Assembly: GCA_003050565.1 (NCBI GenBank)
Contig: PEBW01000003.1
Span: 1-64,000 of the forward strand
Direction: 5' to 3'
Length of the DNA: 64,000 nucleotides
Source: Brockia lithotrophica
GTDB lineage: Bacteria; Bacillota; Bacilli; Thermicanales; DSM-22653
The notes under the pieces were generated by a model. The model had not been told where the DNA came from, ran no database searches, and saw nothing but the letters and a program-made list of their open reading frames with translations. This document shows, in pieces, positions 15,121 to 58,675 of the stretch. The position numbers and the translations under genes are program-made. The number at the start of each line of letters is the position of its first letter. The first letter of the stretch is position 1.

Positions 15121-15749
15121 GGCCGCATCCCCCCCGCGTACCCCGTCGCGCCGAAGTGCGTGCGAAAGGCGAAGGGAAGGAGGACCGCCGTGATCAAACC
15201 CTCCCCGATGCCGATGAGGGCGTGCCAGTAGAGGAGCGCCTGAAAGGCGAGGGCGTAGGAGACGACGCCCGAAAGCCCCAGACCCAGTGCTGCGGTCGCC
15301 GCCGCCGCCACGGCACTCGTCCACCCAGCCGCGAATCCCTTGATCGGGACGGAAATCCGCCCCAGGGCGTCGTACACGAGCCGGCCGACGAGCGGGGCCA
15401 CGATCGCCAAGTCGAGAATGTTCATCCCGAGGGCGGTGATCCCCCCGTCCTGAAAGAGCAGCGCCTGAAGGACGAGCACCGTGGACATGATGAGCGTCGC
15501 AGGCCAAAAGCCAAAGACGATCGCCGCAAAGGCGCCACCCAAGAGGTGGCCGGAAGTCGCCGCTCCGAGGAGCGGAAAGTTCACCATCTGCGCCGCGAAG
15601 ATGAAGGCCGCCGTCGCCCCCATCGCCGGGAGGCGTTCGGCGTCGAGCTCCCGCCCCACCTTGCGCGCCGCAACGGCGAGTACACCTAAAGAAAGCGCTC
15701 CCGCGCCGAGGAGTACCGGAGGCGAAAGGATCCCGTCGGGGATGTGCAC
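15117..15749 (-). CDS. cbiM: CbiM, metal-binding membrane subunit of cobalt/nickel transporter
   Basis: A 210-residue membrane protein that begins MHIPDGIL. The N-terminal Met-His is the metal ligand of the family, which confirms the GTG start at 15749. Later motifs are FAAQMVNFP, SGHLLGGAFAAI and the final GIGEGLITA, with about six hydrophobic segments. It binds Co(II) or Ni(II) and passes it to the CbiN-Q-O complex. No cobalamin or NiCo riboswitch is recognisable upstream, so the metal cannot be named from regulation. No cobalamin-synthesis or urease/hydrogenase gene lies beside it. Confidence 0.93.
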   Translation of the reverse strand: MHIPDGILSPPVLLGAGALSLGVLAVAARKVGRELDAERLPAMGATAAFIFAAQMVNFPLLGAATSGHLLGGAFAAIVFGFWPATLIMSTVLVLQALLFQDGGITALGMNILDLAIVAPLVGRLVYDALGRISVPIKGFAAGWTSAVAAAATAALGLGLSGVVSYALAFQALLYWHALIGIGEGLITAVLLPFAFRTHFGATGYAGGMRP

Positions 15750-51888: not shown

Positions 51889-53241
51889 TCAGCCCTCCCG
51901 GGACTCAAGGGATTCCCAGAGGCGGAAAAACGACGGGAAGGAGACGGCAACGGCCTCGTACCCGCGGAGGAGGGAAGTCCCCTCGCGGACGAGGGCGGCC
52001 GCCACGGCAAAGGACATGGCGAGCCGGTGGTCGCCCGCCGCATCTCCCGAAGAGCCGCGGAGCGGCGTAGGTCCCTCGACGACGAAACCGTCCGGACGTT
52101 CGGAAATCTCGGCGCCCATGGGGCGGAGGAGGCGGACGATCTCCGCGATGCGGTCGGATTCCTTCACGCGGAGTTCGGATGCCCCTTCGACGACCGTACG
52201 GCCCTCCGCCTGCGTCGCGAGGACGGCGAGAAGCGGGAGTTCGTCGATGAGGCGGGGGACGTCCTCCGCGCCTACGGTCACCCCGTGCAGGCGGGAAGAC
52301 GCGACGCGCACGGAACCCACGGGCTCTCCCCAGAACTCTCCCTCTTCCGACACCTCGACCGTCGCGCCCATCTTTCGCAGGACGTCGAGAAAGCCGGTGC
52401 GCGTCGGGTTGAGGCCCACCTCGCGCACGACGACCTCCGCATCCGGGTGGGCGGCGGCGAGTCCGAGAAAAAACGCGGCGGAGGAGATGTCTCCGGGCAC
52501 GCGGATTCGATGGTCGCCCTCGGGGACAAACGGCCCCCGAAGCACGAGGCGCCTTACCCCGTCCCCACCTCCCGGTTCGACCGCGAGGGGCGCGCCGAGG
52601 GCGCGAAGGAGGCGCTCGGTGTGGTCGCGGCTCACGACGGGTTCCTCGACGACGTGCTCACCCTCCGTGCCGAGACCGGCGAAGAGAAGGGCGGACTTCA
52701 CCTGCGCGCTGGCCACGGGAAGGCGGACGGACAGCGGGCGAAGGTTTCCCCCGCGGACGGCCAGGGGGAGGTACTCGCCGTCGGCGCGGCCGAGTACCGC
52801 GGCCCCCGCCCGGCGAAGCGGATCGACGACGCGGCGCATGGGGCGGCGGGCGAGGGAGTCGTCGCCGTCGAACACGACGGCGATCGGATACGGCGCCACA
52901 AGGCCGAGGGCGAGGCGCAAGGTCGTCCCGGAGTTTCCCGCGTCGATCACGTGCCGGGGCTCATGCCAACGGCCGGGACCTAAGCTCGCGAGTCGGACCG
53001 CAAGGGCGTCGACGCCCGCGGTGTCGGGGACCACGGCGACGTCGACGCCCAGGGCCCGGACGAGGCGAAGGGTCGCCTCGACGTCCTGGGAGGCGAGGAC
53101 GCCGCGGGCCTCCACCTTCCCCCGGTTCAACGCGCCGAGCATGAGGATCCGATGGGAGAGGGACTTGTCCCCGGGCACGCGCCCGTCGAAGCGCACGCGC
53201 CGAATGGGGCGCAAAGGCAGGGCGGTCGACGGATCGGACAT
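51889..53241 (-). CDS. aroA: EPSP synthase (3-phosphoshikimate 1-carboxyvinyltransferase)
   Basis: A 450-residue enzyme of the shikimate pathway: transfers enolpyruvyl from PEP to shikimate 3-phosphate. Motifs: GDKSLSHRILML, AGNSGTTLRL, RRPMRRVVDPL, SAQVKSALLFAGL, VPGDISSAAFFL, and ELRVKESDRIAEI with DHRLAMSFAVAA. ATG at 53241 after GAGGGAGGG. Follows tyrA by 142 bp. Confidence 0.97.
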   Translation of the reverse strand: MSDPSTALPLRPIRRVRFDGRVPGDKSLSHRILMLGALNRGKVEARGVLASQDVEATLRLVRALGVDVAVVPDTAGVDALAVRLASLGPGRWHEPRHVIDAGNSGTTLRLALGLVAPYPIAVVFDGDDSLARRPMRRVVDPLRRAGAAVLGRADGEYLPLAVRGGNLRPLSVRLPVASAQVKSALLFAGLGTEGEHVVEEPVVSRDHTERLLRALGAPLAVEPGGGDGVRRLVLRGPFVPEGDHRIRVPGDISSAAFFLGLAAAHPDAEVVVREVGLNPTRTGFLDVLRKMGATVEVSEEGEFWGEPVGSVRVASSRLHGVTVGAEDVPRLIDELPLLAVLATQAEGRTVVEGASELRVKESDRIAEIVRLLRPMGAEISERPDGFVVEGPTPLRGSSGDAAGDHRLAMSFAVAAALVREGTSLLRGYEAVAVSFPSFFRLWESLESREG

Positions 53242-53383: not shown

Positions 53384-54550
53384 TCAGCGGGGAAATTCCA
53401 CGTCGTAGCCGGCTTCCCGCAGTACTTCGTGGGCGCGAAGGAGGTCGGTTTCGTTGCGAAACGCCAGGCGGAGGATCCCCCAGACGTCTTCCCGGAGTTC
53501 GAGGATCTCGAGGTTGGTGAGGTTGATCCCTTGCTCGCCCAGAAGCGTGGTGAGCCGCCCGATCTCCCCCGGGCGGTCCGCGATGCGCGCGTAAAGTTCG
53601 AACAAGGGGTGGATCGCCCCGCGCCGCTTTTCCGGAAGGGCGCGGCGATAGCGCGAAGCTTCGGAAAAAAACCGATACAAAAACTCGTCGACGTCCGCCG
53701 TCCCTTCGAGGTCCCGGTCGGGGTCTTCCGCTTCCCCGGAGACGTCGACGCTCCGGAGGAGCCGCGCGAGGGTTTCGGCGCGGCGGGCAATTTCTTCGAG
53801 GTACGCCCCCACCACCTCGCGATTCTCGAGGAGGATGTCCCGCCACATGGCCGGATCTCCCTCGGCGATGCGGGTGAGGTCTTTGAACCCTCCCGCCGCG
53901 AGGAAGTAGTACCAGTCGCTCTCGCTTCGCCGCTCGAGGACCATGTGCACGAGGAGGGCGGCGACCACGTGGGGGAGGTGACTCACGAGGCCTACGACGC
54001 GGTCGTGGACGTCCGGATCCATGGTCACGATCTTCGCGCGCGTCGGTGCGAGCACCTCGCGGACGAGCGCCAAGGCGCCCTCCGGCGTGCCCGCCGCGGG
54101 GCAGAGGACGTAGTACGCGTTTTCGAACAAATCCGCATGCGCCGCCTCCAGCCCCGCCTTGTGCGAACCCGCCATGGGGTGGCCGCCCACGAAGTACACG
54201 CCTCGGTCGCGAAAGACCTCCTCCGCAAGGCGCACGATTCCCGCCTTCGTGCTCCCCACGTCCGTGATCACCGCTCCCGGGCGCAGGCGCGCCGTGCGCA
54301 AGGATTCGAGCAAGGCGCGAATCGTCCGCACGGGCGTGGCGAGGACGATCACGTCGTACGCGGACGCGGCGCGCAGAAAATCGGGTTCTTCGCGGGAGAT
54401 GAAGCCTAGTTCACGGGCCCGGCGTATGCGCCCCGGAACGGCGTCCGTCCCCCCGACCTCCCAACCGCCGCGCGTGAGCGCAGCGGCGAGCGAACCGCCG
54501 ATGAGGCCGAGGCCGACGATGAGCACGCGTATCTCCACCGAAGTTCTCAC
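53384..54550 (-). CDS. tyrA: Prephenate dehydrogenase with ACT domain
   Basis: A 388-residue enzyme that makes 4-hydroxyphenylpyruvate for tyrosine. N-terminal NAD site VLIVGLGLIGGSLAAAL, active-site GGHPMAGSHKAGL and SHLPHVVAALL, and a C-terminal ACT domain (about 318-388: ARIADRPGEIGRLTTLLGEQGINLTNLEI) for feedback control. GTG at 54550 overlaps the hisC stop (GTGA). Confidence 0.96.
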   Translation of the reverse strand: MRTSVEIRVLIVGLGLIGGSLAAALTRGGWEVGGTDAVPGRIRRARELGFISREEPDFLRAASAYDVIVLATPVRTIRALLESLRTARLRPGAVITDVGSTKAGIVRLAEEVFRDRGVYFVGGHPMAGSHKAGLEAAHADLFENAYYVLCPAAGTPEGALALVREVLAPTRAKIVTMDPDVHDRVVGLVSHLPHVVAALLVHMVLERRSESDWYYFLAAGGFKDLTRIAEGDPAMWRDILLENREVVGAYLEEIARRAETLARLLRSVDVSGEAEDPDRDLEGTADVDEFLYRFFSEASRYRRALPEKRRGAIHPLFELYARIADRPGEIGRLTTLLGEQGINLTNLEILELREDVWGILRLAFRNETDLLRAHEVLREAGYDVEFPR

Positions 54551-55785
54551 CTCGACAGTTCGTCAGGGTGCCACCCCGCGGCGTACCTTTCCCGAAGGGC
54601 GCGGAAGGCCGCCACCGCGCGATCTATGTCGTCTTCCGTTCCCACGGAAATCCGAAGCCCGAGCGGCGGAAAGGGACGGACGATGACGCCCGCGCGCTTC
54701 AGGCGGGCGTGGGCCTCGCCTATAGAGATTTCCCCCGCCTCCCCGGGCAAGCTCCCCGCCGGGCAATCGGAAGACGCGAGCAGCCGACGGGCCTCTTCGG
54801 TCGCCCAGGGCACGAATACGAAGTTCGTTTCCGAGGGAAGCACGGGGTACCCGAGTTCCCGCAGTTCGCCGGCGAGGCGTTCCCGCGCCGCGCGCGTACG
54901 GCGGACGACCCGAAAGACGTGCTCCTCGTCCTCGAGCGCCGCTTCGGCAGCCCGCTGGGCAAGGGCAGAGAGGTTGAAGGGGCGCCGCGCCTCTTCCAAG
55001 AACTCTACGAGCTCGGGCCGCCCTACGGCGTAGCCCACGCGCAAGCCCGCGAGGCCGTAGGCCTTGGAAAACGTCCGAAGCGCCAGGACGTTCGGCTGCC
55101 GCCGTGCGAGTTCGACGCCCGACGGCGCCGCACCGGGCGCGACGTATTCGGCGTACGCCTCGTCGTAGACGAGGAGGACGTCGGGAGGAAGTTCGGCGAC
55201 GAAGGACTCCACGGCCGCGGGGTCCACGGCCGTGCCCAAGGGGTTGTCCGGCACGTCGAGCCACACGAGGCGCACGTCTTCCCGCCTGCGGACGCTCTCC
55301 GCCAGGGCCGCGAGGTCGTGCCGCCCCTCCCGCACGGGAACTTCCACGGCCTCCGCGCCGAAGAGGCGCGTGAGGATCGGGTACATGGCAAAGCTCGGCC
55401 GGCTCATCACGGCCGCCGCGCCGGGTTCCAGAAAGCGGGCGGCGATCGTCTGGAGGACGTCCTCGAGACCCGCGCCGACAAAGATCCAAGACGGATCGAC
55501 CCCGTGGCGGCGCGCAAGCGCCGCGCGCAGGGAGCGGGAGGCTCCGTCCGGGTAGCGGAGGAGGACCTCTGGGTCGCCTGCGGCTTCCCGTAACGCGGCG
55601 AGGACCTGCGGAGAAGGGCCGTAAGGGTTCTCGTTGGAGGAAAGCTTGGCGACGGCTGCAGGCGATAGGCCCGCTTCCCGCGCCACGTCCGCGGGAGATT
55701 CTCCGGGCACGTAGCGAACGAGGCCGCTGCGGTCGTTCGCGCGAATGCGAACCTCGCCGCCAAGCGGCTCAGAGGGCGAGGTCAC
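54547..55785 (-). CDS. hisC: Histidinol-phosphate aminotransferase
   Basis: A 412-residue PLP aminotransferase, family I. LSSNENPYGPSP, the PLP Lys in TFSKAYGLAGLRVGYAVG, and the C-terminal GLRISVGTEDDIDRAV are visible. In Bacilli the enzyme in this place also serves tyrosine and phenylalanine. GTG start at 55785 after GGGGGGAG, overlapping the asparagine-synthetase-like gene by 17 bp. An N-terminal extension of about 15 residues is present. Confidence 0.95.
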   Translation of the reverse strand: MTSPSEPLGGEVRIRANDRSGLVRYVPGESPADVAREAGLSPAAVAKLSSNENPYGPSPQVLAALREAAGDPEVLLRYPDGASRSLRAALARRHGVDPSWIFVGAGLEDVLQTIAARFLEPGAAAVMSRPSFAMYPILTRLFGAEAVEVPVREGRHDLAALAESVRRREDVRLVWLDVPDNPLGTAVDPAAVESFVAELPPDVLLVYDEAYAEYVAPGAAPSGVELARRQPNVLALRTFSKAYGLAGLRVGYAVGRPELVEFLEEARRPFNLSALAQRAAEAALEDEEHVFRVVRRTRAARERLAGELRELGYPVLPSETNFVFVPWATEEARRLLASSDCPAGSLPGEAGEISIGEAHARLKRAGVIVRPFPPLGLRISVGTEDDIDRAVAAFRALRERYAAGWHPDELSR

Positions 55786-57751
55786 GGGAGACTCCCCCCT
55801 TTTCCGAAGAGACGCCCGCGCGCGCCGCCGAGGAGAGGAAGACCTCCGACCACAAGGCGAGGGCGTAGAGGACGTAGAGCTTGCGGGCGTTGTCCCGCCT
55901 CCCCTCCACGTGCTCGCGGGCGAGCGAAGCGGCGTAGCCGACGTCGAGAAATGCGGCCGCCGGCGATTCGGCGATGCGGGCGACGACCCGATCGGCGTAC
56001 CCCTGGCGCAGCCAGTCGCGGAGCGGCACGGGAAAGCCGAGCTTCGGCCGGTCGACGACGTGCGGGGGAAGGATGTCGCGGAAGGCTTGGCGGACGATGT
56101 ACTTGCTCTGACCGCCCCGCACCTTGAACGACGAGGGCACACGCGAGGCGAGGCGGTAGACGTCGAAGTGCATGAAGGGCATACCCAGCTGCACGCCGTG
56201 CGCCGCCGTCGAGCGTTCTCCCTTTACGAGGATGTCGCCGGGGAGCCAGAGGTTGAGGTCGACGAGCTGCATGCGCGCGACGTCGTCCACGGCGGGAGGC
56301 AGGGAGGCGTAGACCTCCCTCGCCCACGAAAAGGCGTCGCGTGCCCCGCGGAGCACGTCGCGAATTTCCGGGCGAAAGGCCGCAAACCGGTCCTCGGTGA
56401 AGACCTTGGCGTTCCCCACGTAGCGCTCCTCCAAGGGGGTCACGGAGCGCAAGAGGTAGTTCTTTCCGTAAAATCCCGGGAGGCTGCGGAAGAACACGCG
56501 GAGCGCGCGGCGCACCGGCAGGGGGAGGTGGCCCGCCCAGGAGACGGCGGCCGGCTCCAGGTAGATGCGGTACCCGGCGAAGAACTCGTCGGCCCCCTCG
56601 CCGGACAGGACCTTGCGGACGTACTCCGCCGCGCGGCCCGCGAGGAGGTAGAGCCCCACGGCCGAAGGATCCCCGAGGGGTTCGTCGAAGGCAGAGGCGG
56701 CCTCCCCCGCCCGCCCGAAGTACTCGTCGGGCGTCACGGGCCAAAACCGGTGCTCCGTTCCCAAGAAGCGCGCCGTCGCCTCCGCCAGGGGACATTCGTC
56801 GTTCGGACCCCCGAAGCACACGGAAAACGTCCGCACGTCTCCGCGCCTCCGGGCGAGCGCCGCCAAGATCGAGGAATCGACCCCGCTGGAGAGAAGGACG
56901 CCGGTTTCGCCCGGAATCCACTCCGCGTCAAACGTTCGCTCCACCGTCGCGCGGATCGCCCGCTTCCAAAACTCCTCCGTCCGCTCCACGGGATCGACGG
57001 TCGGGGCGAAGTAACGCACTTCGTCCACACCCGCGGGTCGAAAGCGGAGGAAGTGGCCGGGGCGAAGGCGAAACACCTCGCGAAACGGCGTAAAGGGCCC
57101 GGGGACGTACTGCAAGGTGAGGTACATGAGCAAGGCTTCGAAGTTCACTTCGGGCAACCGCGAAAGGGCGGGCAGAAGGGCCTTGAGCTCGGAAGCGAAG
57201 GCCAGGTTTCCGTCTCCTGCGGAGTAGAACAGGGGGCGAACGCCAAAGGGATCGCGGACGAGGTACAGCGTTTCCGCTCCGGGGTCGTGGAGCACGAGGA
57301 CGAAGGCGCCGTGGAGGTACGAAAACGCGCCCTCCCCGAACCGGTCGTACAGGGCGAGGATCGCCCGTTCGGCCTCGCTCCCCACCACGTTCTCCGGAAG
57401 CCTTCCTCCGGAGAGGAGACGGGCATAGCGCAGAAGCCCGCGCGCGTTGGCCGGCCTTCCATCGAAGAGGGCGTAGCGCCCCGTTCGAAGGTCTACGGCG
57501 CCCCGGCGCACGCCGAGGGCCCTCACCTCCCCTTCCGGAAAATCACCATCCGAGGCGTCGGGAGATTTCCGGTCGAGCCAAACGCCGATCCCCACTTCTT
57601 CCCGCCGATAGGCGATCTCCGGCGAGCCTCGGTGCAACGCGCGCCCGGCCATCGCCTCGAGGACGCTGTCGCGAGAAAGGCTCGCCTCGTCGCCCTTTCC
57701 GCCCGCCGCACTCGGACGAACGAACCGCGCAACACCCCAAAGCCCGCTCAT
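55769..57751 (-). CDS. Asparagine-synthetase-like protein lacking the N-terminal cysteine
   Basis: A 660-residue AsnB/AsnO-type protein. The C-terminal synthetase half is well kept: LLSSGVDSSILAALA (PP-loop), the phosphate and Asp sites SGEGADEFFAGY and GERSTAAHGVQLGMPF, and GQSKYIVRQAFRDILPP. In the N-terminal half the fold is recognisable (HRG, LVRDPFGVRPLFYS), but the catalytic Cys of MCGxxG is Ser (MSGLWG) and the NGEIYN segment reads FDGRPAN. Glutamine hydrolysis is therefore unlikely; free ammonia or another amine may be used. ATG at 57751. It lies before hisC with overlapping ends. An upstream in-frame extension is not homologous. Confidence 0.85.
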   Translation of the reverse strand: MSGLWGVARFVRPSAAGGKGDEASLSRDSVLEAMAGRALHRGSPEIAYRREEVGIGVWLDRKSPDASDGDFPEGEVRALGVRRGAVDLRTGRYALFDGRPANARGLLRYARLLSGGRLPENVVGSEAERAILALYDRFGEGAFSYLHGAFVLVLHDPGAETLYLVRDPFGVRPLFYSAGDGNLAFASELKALLPALSRLPEVNFEALLMYLTLQYVPGPFTPFREVFRLRPGHFLRFRPAGVDEVRYFAPTVDPVERTEEFWKRAIRATVERTFDAEWIPGETGVLLSSGVDSSILAALARRRGDVRTFSVCFGGPNDECPLAEATARFLGTEHRFWPVTPDEYFGRAGEAASAFDEPLGDPSAVGLYLLAGRAAEYVRKVLSGEGADEFFAGYRIYLEPAAVSWAGHLPLPVRRALRVFFRSLPGFYGKNYLLRSVTPLEERYVGNAKVFTEDRFAAFRPEIRDVLRGARDAFSWAREVYASLPPAVDDVARMQLVDLNLWLPGDILVKGERSTAAHGVQLGMPFMHFDVYRLASRVPSSFKVRGGQSKYIVRQAFRDILPPHVVDRPKLGFPVPLRDWLRQGYADRVVARIAESPAAAFLDVGYAASLAREHVEGRRDNARKLYVLYALALWSEVFLSSAARAGVSSEKGGVSRDLAL

Positions 57752-58114: not shown

Positions 58115-58675
58115 GTGCTCCTTTCGGGAAAGCGTCTGGGTGCCGCGCTCCTCGGGGTTGCCCTTCTCGGGGGCACCATGGCACACGTCGCCTCGGCGGA
58201 AAGCACGACCGCGAACCAAGCACCCGGACAAGGTACGGGGGAACCCCCGGGCATCTGCGCGCAGCAAGGTCAGGCGGCGCAAAAGGCGATGCACGGCGCC
58301 CGCAGCCTCGTCGCCCGCTTCGCCGAAGCTTTGGGGATGGACCGCATGGACCTCGCCACGGAGCTCCGGAACGGGAAGTCCGTCGCGGAAGTGGCGCAGG
58401 AAAAGGGCGTATCTCCGGACGCGCTCGTCGCCAAGGCGCTCGAAGGCGTCAAGGAACGCCTCGACAAGGCGGTGGAAAACGGCCGGATCACGGCCGAGGA
58501 ACGCGACAAGCGCCTCGAGGAAGCCAAGGTACGCATCCAAGAGCGCATCGAAGCCAAGGGGACGGATGCTAAGCTCCGTTCCCGCCTCCACCGGCCGGAC
58601 TCCGCACCCGTACCCGGTGAAGGAAAAGGTGCCGGAAACGGCGCCTCCCGCACCACCTCGGGCTCCAACGCCTGA
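58115..58675 (+). CDS. Small exported protein with a charged helical repeat
   Basis: A 186-residue protein. A signal peptide (GKRLGAALLGVALLGGTMAHVASA) is cleaved before ESTT. The body contains a pattern common in exported Firmicute proteins of unknown role: LGMDRMDLATELRNGKSVAEVAQEKGVS, then LVAKALEGVKERLDKAVENGRITAEERDKRLEEAK. The tail is Gly/Ser-rich. One Cys follows the signal. GTG at 58115 with AAGGAGGGAG. It is on the opposite strand to the amino-acid operons and has its own terminator and candidate operator. Possibly an envelope-stress or metal-binding protein; not proven. Confidence 0.75.
   Translation: MLLSGKRLGAALLGVALLGGTMAHVASAESTTANQAPGQGTGEPPGICAQQGQAAQKAMHGARSLVARFAEALGMDRMDLATELRNGKSVAEVAQEKGVSPDALVAKALEGVKERLDKAVENGRITAEERDKRLEEAKVRIQERIEAKGTDAKLRSRLHRPDSAPVPGEGKGAGNGASRTTSGSNA

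Follow-up and report, generated by a model that had tools for sequence, protein, structure and literature searches.

Glutamine is regarded as the nearly universal source of nitrogen for making nucleotides, amino sugars, cofactors and amide-tRNAs, and Cys2 is the nucleophile of the class II glutamine amidotransferases. The beta-lactam and carbapenam synthetases are Cys-less relatives of AsnB with a silent Ntn domain. In Listeria, B. subtilis and others, meso-diaminopimelate (mDAP) is amidated by AsnB, and an E. coli Asn auxotroph can be complemented with any of B. subtilis AsnB, AsnO and AsnH (PMC8554201). In human ASNS, the lining of the ammonia tunnel includes Ala-404 and Leu-415, the Arg-142 gate, situated next to the glutaminase-site residues Asn-74 and Glu-76, interacts with Asp-405 and Glu-414, and Arg-403 contacts the carboxylate of beta-aspartyl-AMP (PMC11615228).

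Here, we analyzed a 64,000-nucleotide stretch of Brockia lithotrophica DNA (the window), which encodes an AsnB-type protein. The best explanation, in which we have good confidence, is that this protein is an amide synthetase belonging to the AsnB clade of Firmicutes and would use NH3 directly instead of hydrolyzing glutamine, its glutaminase having decayed through the loss of GlnA in the family.

Results

An AsnB-type protein lacking the glutaminase nucleophile

The gene and its motifs lie on the reverse strand of the window.

55769..57751 (-): gene running from ATG to TGA, for a Cys-less amide synthetase of the AsnB type with 660 aa
57734..57751 (-): N-terminus MSGLWG, with the catalytic Cys of MCG changed to Ser2
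57446..57466 (-): FDGRPAN, where the glutaminase motif NGEIYN is expected
56870..56890 (-): ATP pyrophosphatase P-loop SSGVDSS, retained
56585..56605 (-): SGEGADE motif of the synthetase site, retained
56399..56449 (-): RSVTPLEERYVGNAKVF, a signature common to AsnB-clade proteins and missing from AsnO-type proteins
56180..56221 (-): GERSTAAHGVQLGM, aa 511-524, counterpart of the ammonia-tunnel/gate segment in human ASNS (404-417)
56009..56044 (-): KLGFPVPLRDWL, a retained clade motif

The ATG at 57751 is preceded by AAGGAG and gives the N-terminus MSGLWG. The original prediction had pointed to Ser in place of Cys2, to FDGRPAN in place of NGEIYN and to a well-kept ATP-dependent half; the ORF and its start confirmed the first two, and the presence of SSGVDSS and SGEGADE, together with purifying selection on the synthetase half, bore out the third. 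The frame contains no alternative MCG start: it opens at TTG 57919 (MCSGGF...), which is not a glutaminase start, and Ser2 is repeated, behind the same start, in the same-genus ortholog (90% identity). MCG was found at all 77 readable N-termini among 80 AsnB-like relatives, collected by a scan of genome contigs from which the genome itself and its relatives were excluded, indicating that the loss of Cys2 is no common variant.

Five genomes of the family were compared: that of the window (G000), one of the same genus (G001), and G002, G003 and G004. Window-type orthologs are present in four of them; besides the same-genus protein, one has Gly2 (L008, 55% identity to the window protein) and one is missing the front of the glutaminase domain (L010, 42-43% identity).

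In the profile searches, Asn_synthase (PF00733) scored 253.9 bits over aa 282-635, above the gathering score of 21 bits, and the GATase domain was matched by Pfam only in its back part (aa 130-193). The score for TIGR01536, the glutamine-hydrolysing asparagine synthetase, was 249.6 bits, below the equivalog cut-off of 267.1, with nothing aligned before profile position 105; the N-terminal Cys nucleophile expected of such enzymes is missing, as are the Cys2 and intact class II glutaminase of the AsnB clade. An AlphaFold2 model (pLDDT 82.5, weak at aa 42-82) showed the AsnB fold, matching E. coli AsnB with Z 28.4 (rmsd 3.2 over 454 residues) and TsnB9 with Z 32.1 (rmsd 3.3 over 542); its input alignment included canonical sequences, making the model weak evidence on the decayed glutaminase part. 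Single-sequence folding reached a pLDDT of 37 and was set aside.

Loss of invariant residues and selection on the protein

Of the 53 invariants in the glutaminase half, 20 are gone in all four family members; the synthetase half has lost 16 of 114, counted as residues invariant in 22 canonical relatives. These latter losses are concentrated in aa 511-524, where 7 of 12 invariants are lost as against 9 of 102 in the rest of the half (Fisher p 1.5e-4, a descriptive value, since the segment was chosen after viewing the alignment and its 12 invariants were counted by eye). In the alignment to human ASNS, this segment falls on residues 404-417, with the tunnel-lining and gate-contacting positions described above. 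The clustering thus suggests that the residues tying both active sites together were released along with the glutaminase, and, as read from the alignment, it is the pattern expected once channelling is lost.

The dN/dS between the window gene and its same-genus ortholog was 0.14 overall, with 0.11 for the synthetase half and 0.32 and 0.07 for the front and back of the dead glutaminase, respectively. Such low values indicate a working protein. Roughly one in three invariants of the synthetase half is changed, as might be seen in a decaying gene en route to a pseudogene, but this reading is very improbable in view of the dN/dS of the synthetase half and the glutaminase back, and of the persistence of an intact gene in four genomes, at identities as low as 42%. 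By these comparisons, the glutaminase domain is no longer a glutaminase, yet it is not junk.

Glutamine-dependent enzymes in the window genome

We then considered the rest of the genome (1.69 Mb, 12 contigs, apparently a metagenome bin), where at 97% completeness a few absences could be gaps, whereas dead sites are positive evidence. Another, normal asnB, which the original prediction had proposed to look for, was not found: both other full-length AsnB-like proteins also lack Cys2, so that all three are Cys-less, and AsnA was not found either. PF13522 (GATase_6), with matches in 14 of 14 control genomes, detected only two degenerate AsnB-like proteins. One Cys-less AsnB paralog group, the third in the family, starts with PFWGVVG and occurs in two family genomes only, G000 and G001, being duplicated in the latter (L002, L129, L131).

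Other glutamine-fed enzymes are altered or missing as well. The PurF profile match is limited to positions 158-427. In CTP synthase, the nucleophilic Cys is gone (GICLGMQ to ALGYGFP), and class I GATase searches returned only this enzyme and one hydrolase-like protein; the match at C4:30597 was rejected as an amidotransferase, as by eye it resembles a gamma-glutamyl hydrolase (PuuD-like). In the pur operon, purL comes immediately after purC, with neither purS nor purQ in between, and PurQ was not found in the genome. The gene for TrpE lies upstream of the trp genes, and TrpG was not found. GlmS gave no match at all, and glucosamine-6-phosphate would then be made otherwise, perhaps by an ammonia-using deaminase in reverse. 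Glutamine synthetase (PF00120), present in 389 of 398 genomes of the class and in 14 of 14 controls, had no match in this genome.

The AsnRS profile gave only weak matches, well below the cut-off, which are most likely AspRS and LysRS paralogs, not identified individually. GatA and GatB scored above their NCBIfam cut-offs; together with the lack of AsnRS, this means that Asn- and Gln-tRNA are presumably made via transamidation and that free asparagine is not needed for translation. The Lys-Ser-Ser amidase triad of GatA, which in GatCAB normally frees ammonia from glutamine or asparagine, is kept, so the enzyme may still draw on either of these amide donors. Its feed may be asparagine from the Cys-less AsnO-type paralog, traces of glutamine, or ammonia.

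Parallel losses across the family

GlnA was found in none of G000, G002 and G003. The native CTP synthase has Gly in place of Cys in all five family genomes, each of which also carries a Cys-less AsnO-type paralog (L003). Of the native PurF copies, those of G000, G001 and G003 are dead, G004 retains only a 203-aa frame, and none was found in G002. Since dead native sites recur across the family, the loss is best placed in the family ancestor.

Among other Bacilli, G175, G258, G267, G285 (genus g73), G345 and G046 also had no glutamine synthetase match, and G374 (g73) had only a very weak one. G046 has no GlnA yet an intact AsnO with MCG, indicating that the absence of GlnA is not by itself enough to bring about the loss of a glutaminase.

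A glutamine island in two family members

The two remaining family genomes, G001 and G004, carry GlnA on a collinear island of ~48 kb that encodes at least 14 glutamine-dependent enzymes. Its DNA is ~84-94% identical across the two genera; the window-type AsnB proteins of G001 and G004 are ~55% identical. By NCBIfam and sequence, the island encodes GlnA, GltB, GlmS, GuaA, PurQ, PurL, PurF, CarA, CarB, PyrG, HisH, HisF, a TrpE-TrpG fusion, PabA, a PabB/TrpE-like protein, glutamine-dependent NadE, PdxT, MurT, GatD, an AsnO-type asparagine synthase, DapL and others, several of which (e.g. MurT and GatD) scored below the equivalog cut-offs and are named by best match. Both island copies of CTP synthase are intact, and in G001 Cys-bearing island copies stand alongside the native dead ones. 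Transposase-like frames occur in the island (L205/L206 and L207/L208 in G004; L200-L204 in G001). In G004, it extends over about 16.8 kb of contig C17 and 31 kb of C18, and is adjoined by genes that by eye are urea-transport-like and urease genes (L205/L206 18390-26890), a possible source of ammonia.

In G001, the left flank on C3 and the start of C5 match a site that is uninterrupted in G000. About 0.38 kb of this empty-site sequence lies on both flanks, like a long target duplication:

L214 16075-16458 (G000 C1:225,075-225,458): uninterrupted empty site
L200 ~15130-15516: empty-site copy
L234 ~1235-1640: empty-site copy

The ends of C1 and C6 are likewise in contact with the island, some of which may therefore be located in another part of G001. 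The composition of the island differs from that of native DNA in G001. Contamination was rejected as its source, because the island in G001 is flanked by native DNA that matches the window genome on either side of the empty site. These sequences are read most simply, and most probably, as the result of horizontal acquisition.

The difference in composition, the presence of the island in a genome of the same genus and the apparent origin of G000 as a metagenome bin would also fit an artefact, in which the strain has the island and glutamine synthetase but both fell outside the assembly bin. We regard this as unlikely: the G001 insertion site (C3/C5) is uninterrupted in G000 at C1:225,075-225,458, G002 and G003 are also without glutamine synthetase, and dead native glutaminase sites are shared by all the family genomes, with or without the island. 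Taken together, these genomes probably represent a free-living thermophilic family of Bacilli that abandoned glutamine as a nitrogen carrier, with loss of GlnA, parallel death of glutaminases and ammonia-run biosynthesis (GatCAB possibly being fed by asparagine), and in which two sister lineages would have regained a glutamine economy through one ~48-kb horizontal island serving at least 10 pathways.

Clade placement and the probable acceptor

A phylogeny placed the window-type proteins inside the AsnB super-clade, apart from AsnO: a 22-row AsnB group with support of 91/95 holds the four of them, and the AsnO rows, of which 12 extra paralog loci yielded four usable ones, fall outside. The super-clade includes the AsnB of Listeria, Geobacillus and Corynebacterium. 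The nearest relatives, to which the window type is sister, are uncharacterized AsnB proteins of Salipaludibacillus/Bacilli and Paenibacillus, not the Listeria/Geobacillus core. The motif TPLEERY(I/V)GNA is found in the window protein and not in AsnO-type proteins, and Lys510, at the position of human Arg-403, is also Lys in the clade and Arg in AsnO-type proteins. From this placement, mDAP in peptidoglycan has about an even chance of being the acceptor, and is not certain because the nearest relatives are uncharacterized and outside the core; aspartate is a weaker candidate, and other acceptors would account for the rest.

The name asparagine synthetase is therefore doubtful: the ATP-dependent amide-synthetase half stands, but the protein groups with the mDAP-amidating clade, and asparagine is dispensable for translation. 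It is conceivable, though we favor it much less, that the enzyme is an ammonia-dependent asparagine synthetase, with free asparagine serving as the GatCAB amide donor for both Gln-tRNA and Asn-tRNA. Neither AsnA, AsnRS nor glutamine synthetase was found, GatA/GatB are present with the GatA triad intact, and all three B. subtilis paralogs complement the Asn auxotroph (PMC8554201), in line with such a role. The acceptor region, however, is of the AsnB/mDAP type, including Lys510, and the Cys-less AsnO-type paralog (L003), conserved in all five family genomes, would be a better candidate.

Gene neighborhood

Downstream of the window gene, on the same strand, lie three further genes.

54547..55785 (-): hisC, GTG start at 55785 inside the 3' end of asnB; coupled translation
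53384..54550 (-): tyrA (prephenate dehydrogenase), GTG at 54550 overlapping the hisC stop
51889..53241 (-): aroA (EPSP synthase), identified by sequence

The gene had been described as fused into a hisC-tyrA-aroA transcript. There is no literal fusion, but the asnB/hisC and hisC/tyrA overlaps point to translational coupling. The asnB-hisC linkage is genus-specific, the gene being located elsewhere in G004 and G002. A small signal-peptide-like protein encoded on the opposite strand at 58115-58675 (+), between trpA and asnB, separates the trp genes from the asnB-hisC-tyrA-aroA run. There was no Rfam match in 52-64 kb up to E 1 and no sigma-70 promoter match, and the single terminator-like site is on the other strand.

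A specialized biosynthetic cluster was rejected, as the neighbors are trp, his, tyr and aro genes; the neighborhoods of the relatives were uninformative. The earlier suggestion of a different amide or a specialized product thus found no support, given this context, the orthologs in four of five family genomes and the AsnB-clade acceptor signatures. A synthetase in which another nucleophile attacks the acyl-AMP, in the style of beta-lactam synthetase or lasso-peptide cyclase, has precedent, in that both are Cys-less AsnB relatives and beta-lactam synthetase is a good fold match. We nevertheless consider it highly unlikely, because the protein falls far under the NCBIfam cut-offs for lasso-peptide and macrolactam cyclases (92.5 of 525 and 52.5 of 300 bits, respectively), the aromatic and histidine neighbors and the orthologs in four of five family genomes do not fit, and the loss of the glutaminase in paralogs and unrelated amidotransferases makes specialized chemistry unnecessary.

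Discussion

The suggestion that the enzyme may use ammonia is now well supported. Read from sequence, its catalytic and tunnel-coupling residues are lost, its synthetase half is kept under selection, the PurF and PyrG glutaminases are dead too, and no GlnA was found. We strongly infer that ammonia is the nitrogen donor, and also infer the acceptor, with moderate strength, and the order of events. In the proposed mechanism, ATP would adenylate the carboxylate of an acceptor, which is most likely mDAP in peptidoglycan precursors, at its epsilon-carboxyl, and less likely aspartate; NH3 would displace AMP from the adenylated acceptor at the synthetase site, and the glutaminase half would persist as a scaffold. 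The decay of the glutaminase would follow from the loss of glutamine synthetase in the family, after which glutamine-fed enzymes would have switched to free ammonia or vanished. B. lithotrophica is described as an obligately anaerobic chemolithoautotroph, a lifestyle in which glutamine import is no obvious way out.

A free-living lineage that apparently does not make glutamine would render ammonia-run pathways and the GatCAB feed directly testable, and the island offers a natural experiment in the bulk restoration of a glutamine economy. For annotation, it is a warning that genes called asnB, purF and pyrG may encode ammonia-only enzymes. A literature search of incomplete coverage found no report of coordinated glutaminase-site loss or of a comparable glutamine island.

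Among known enzymes, the AsnB of B. subtilis and L. monocytogenes (an mDAP amidotransferase) shares the super-clade, the acceptor-region signature and the two-domain architecture with the window protein, but has Cys2 and an intact glutaminase, whereas in the window protein Cys2 is replaced by Ser2, NGEIYN is missing and the tunnel residues are altered. E. coli AsnB and human ASNS share the fold and ATP site; the window protein differs in lacking the glutaminase and in having Lys for Arg at the human Arg-403 position. Beta-lactam and carbapenam synthetases use an intramolecular amine nucleophile in secondary metabolism, a context not seen at the window. Among organisms, Syntrophaceticus schinkii and Tepidanaerobacter acetatoxydans, in which glutamine synthetase is reported absent, resemble the family in this lack, but are reported to be adapted to high ammonium and amino-acid-rich surroundings (PMC5113046), whereas the window organism is a predicted autotroph with dead glutaminase sites. 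Blochmannia vafer is also a bacterium without glnA (PMC3017870), but, unlike the window organism, it is an obligate insect endosymbiont able to rely on its host.
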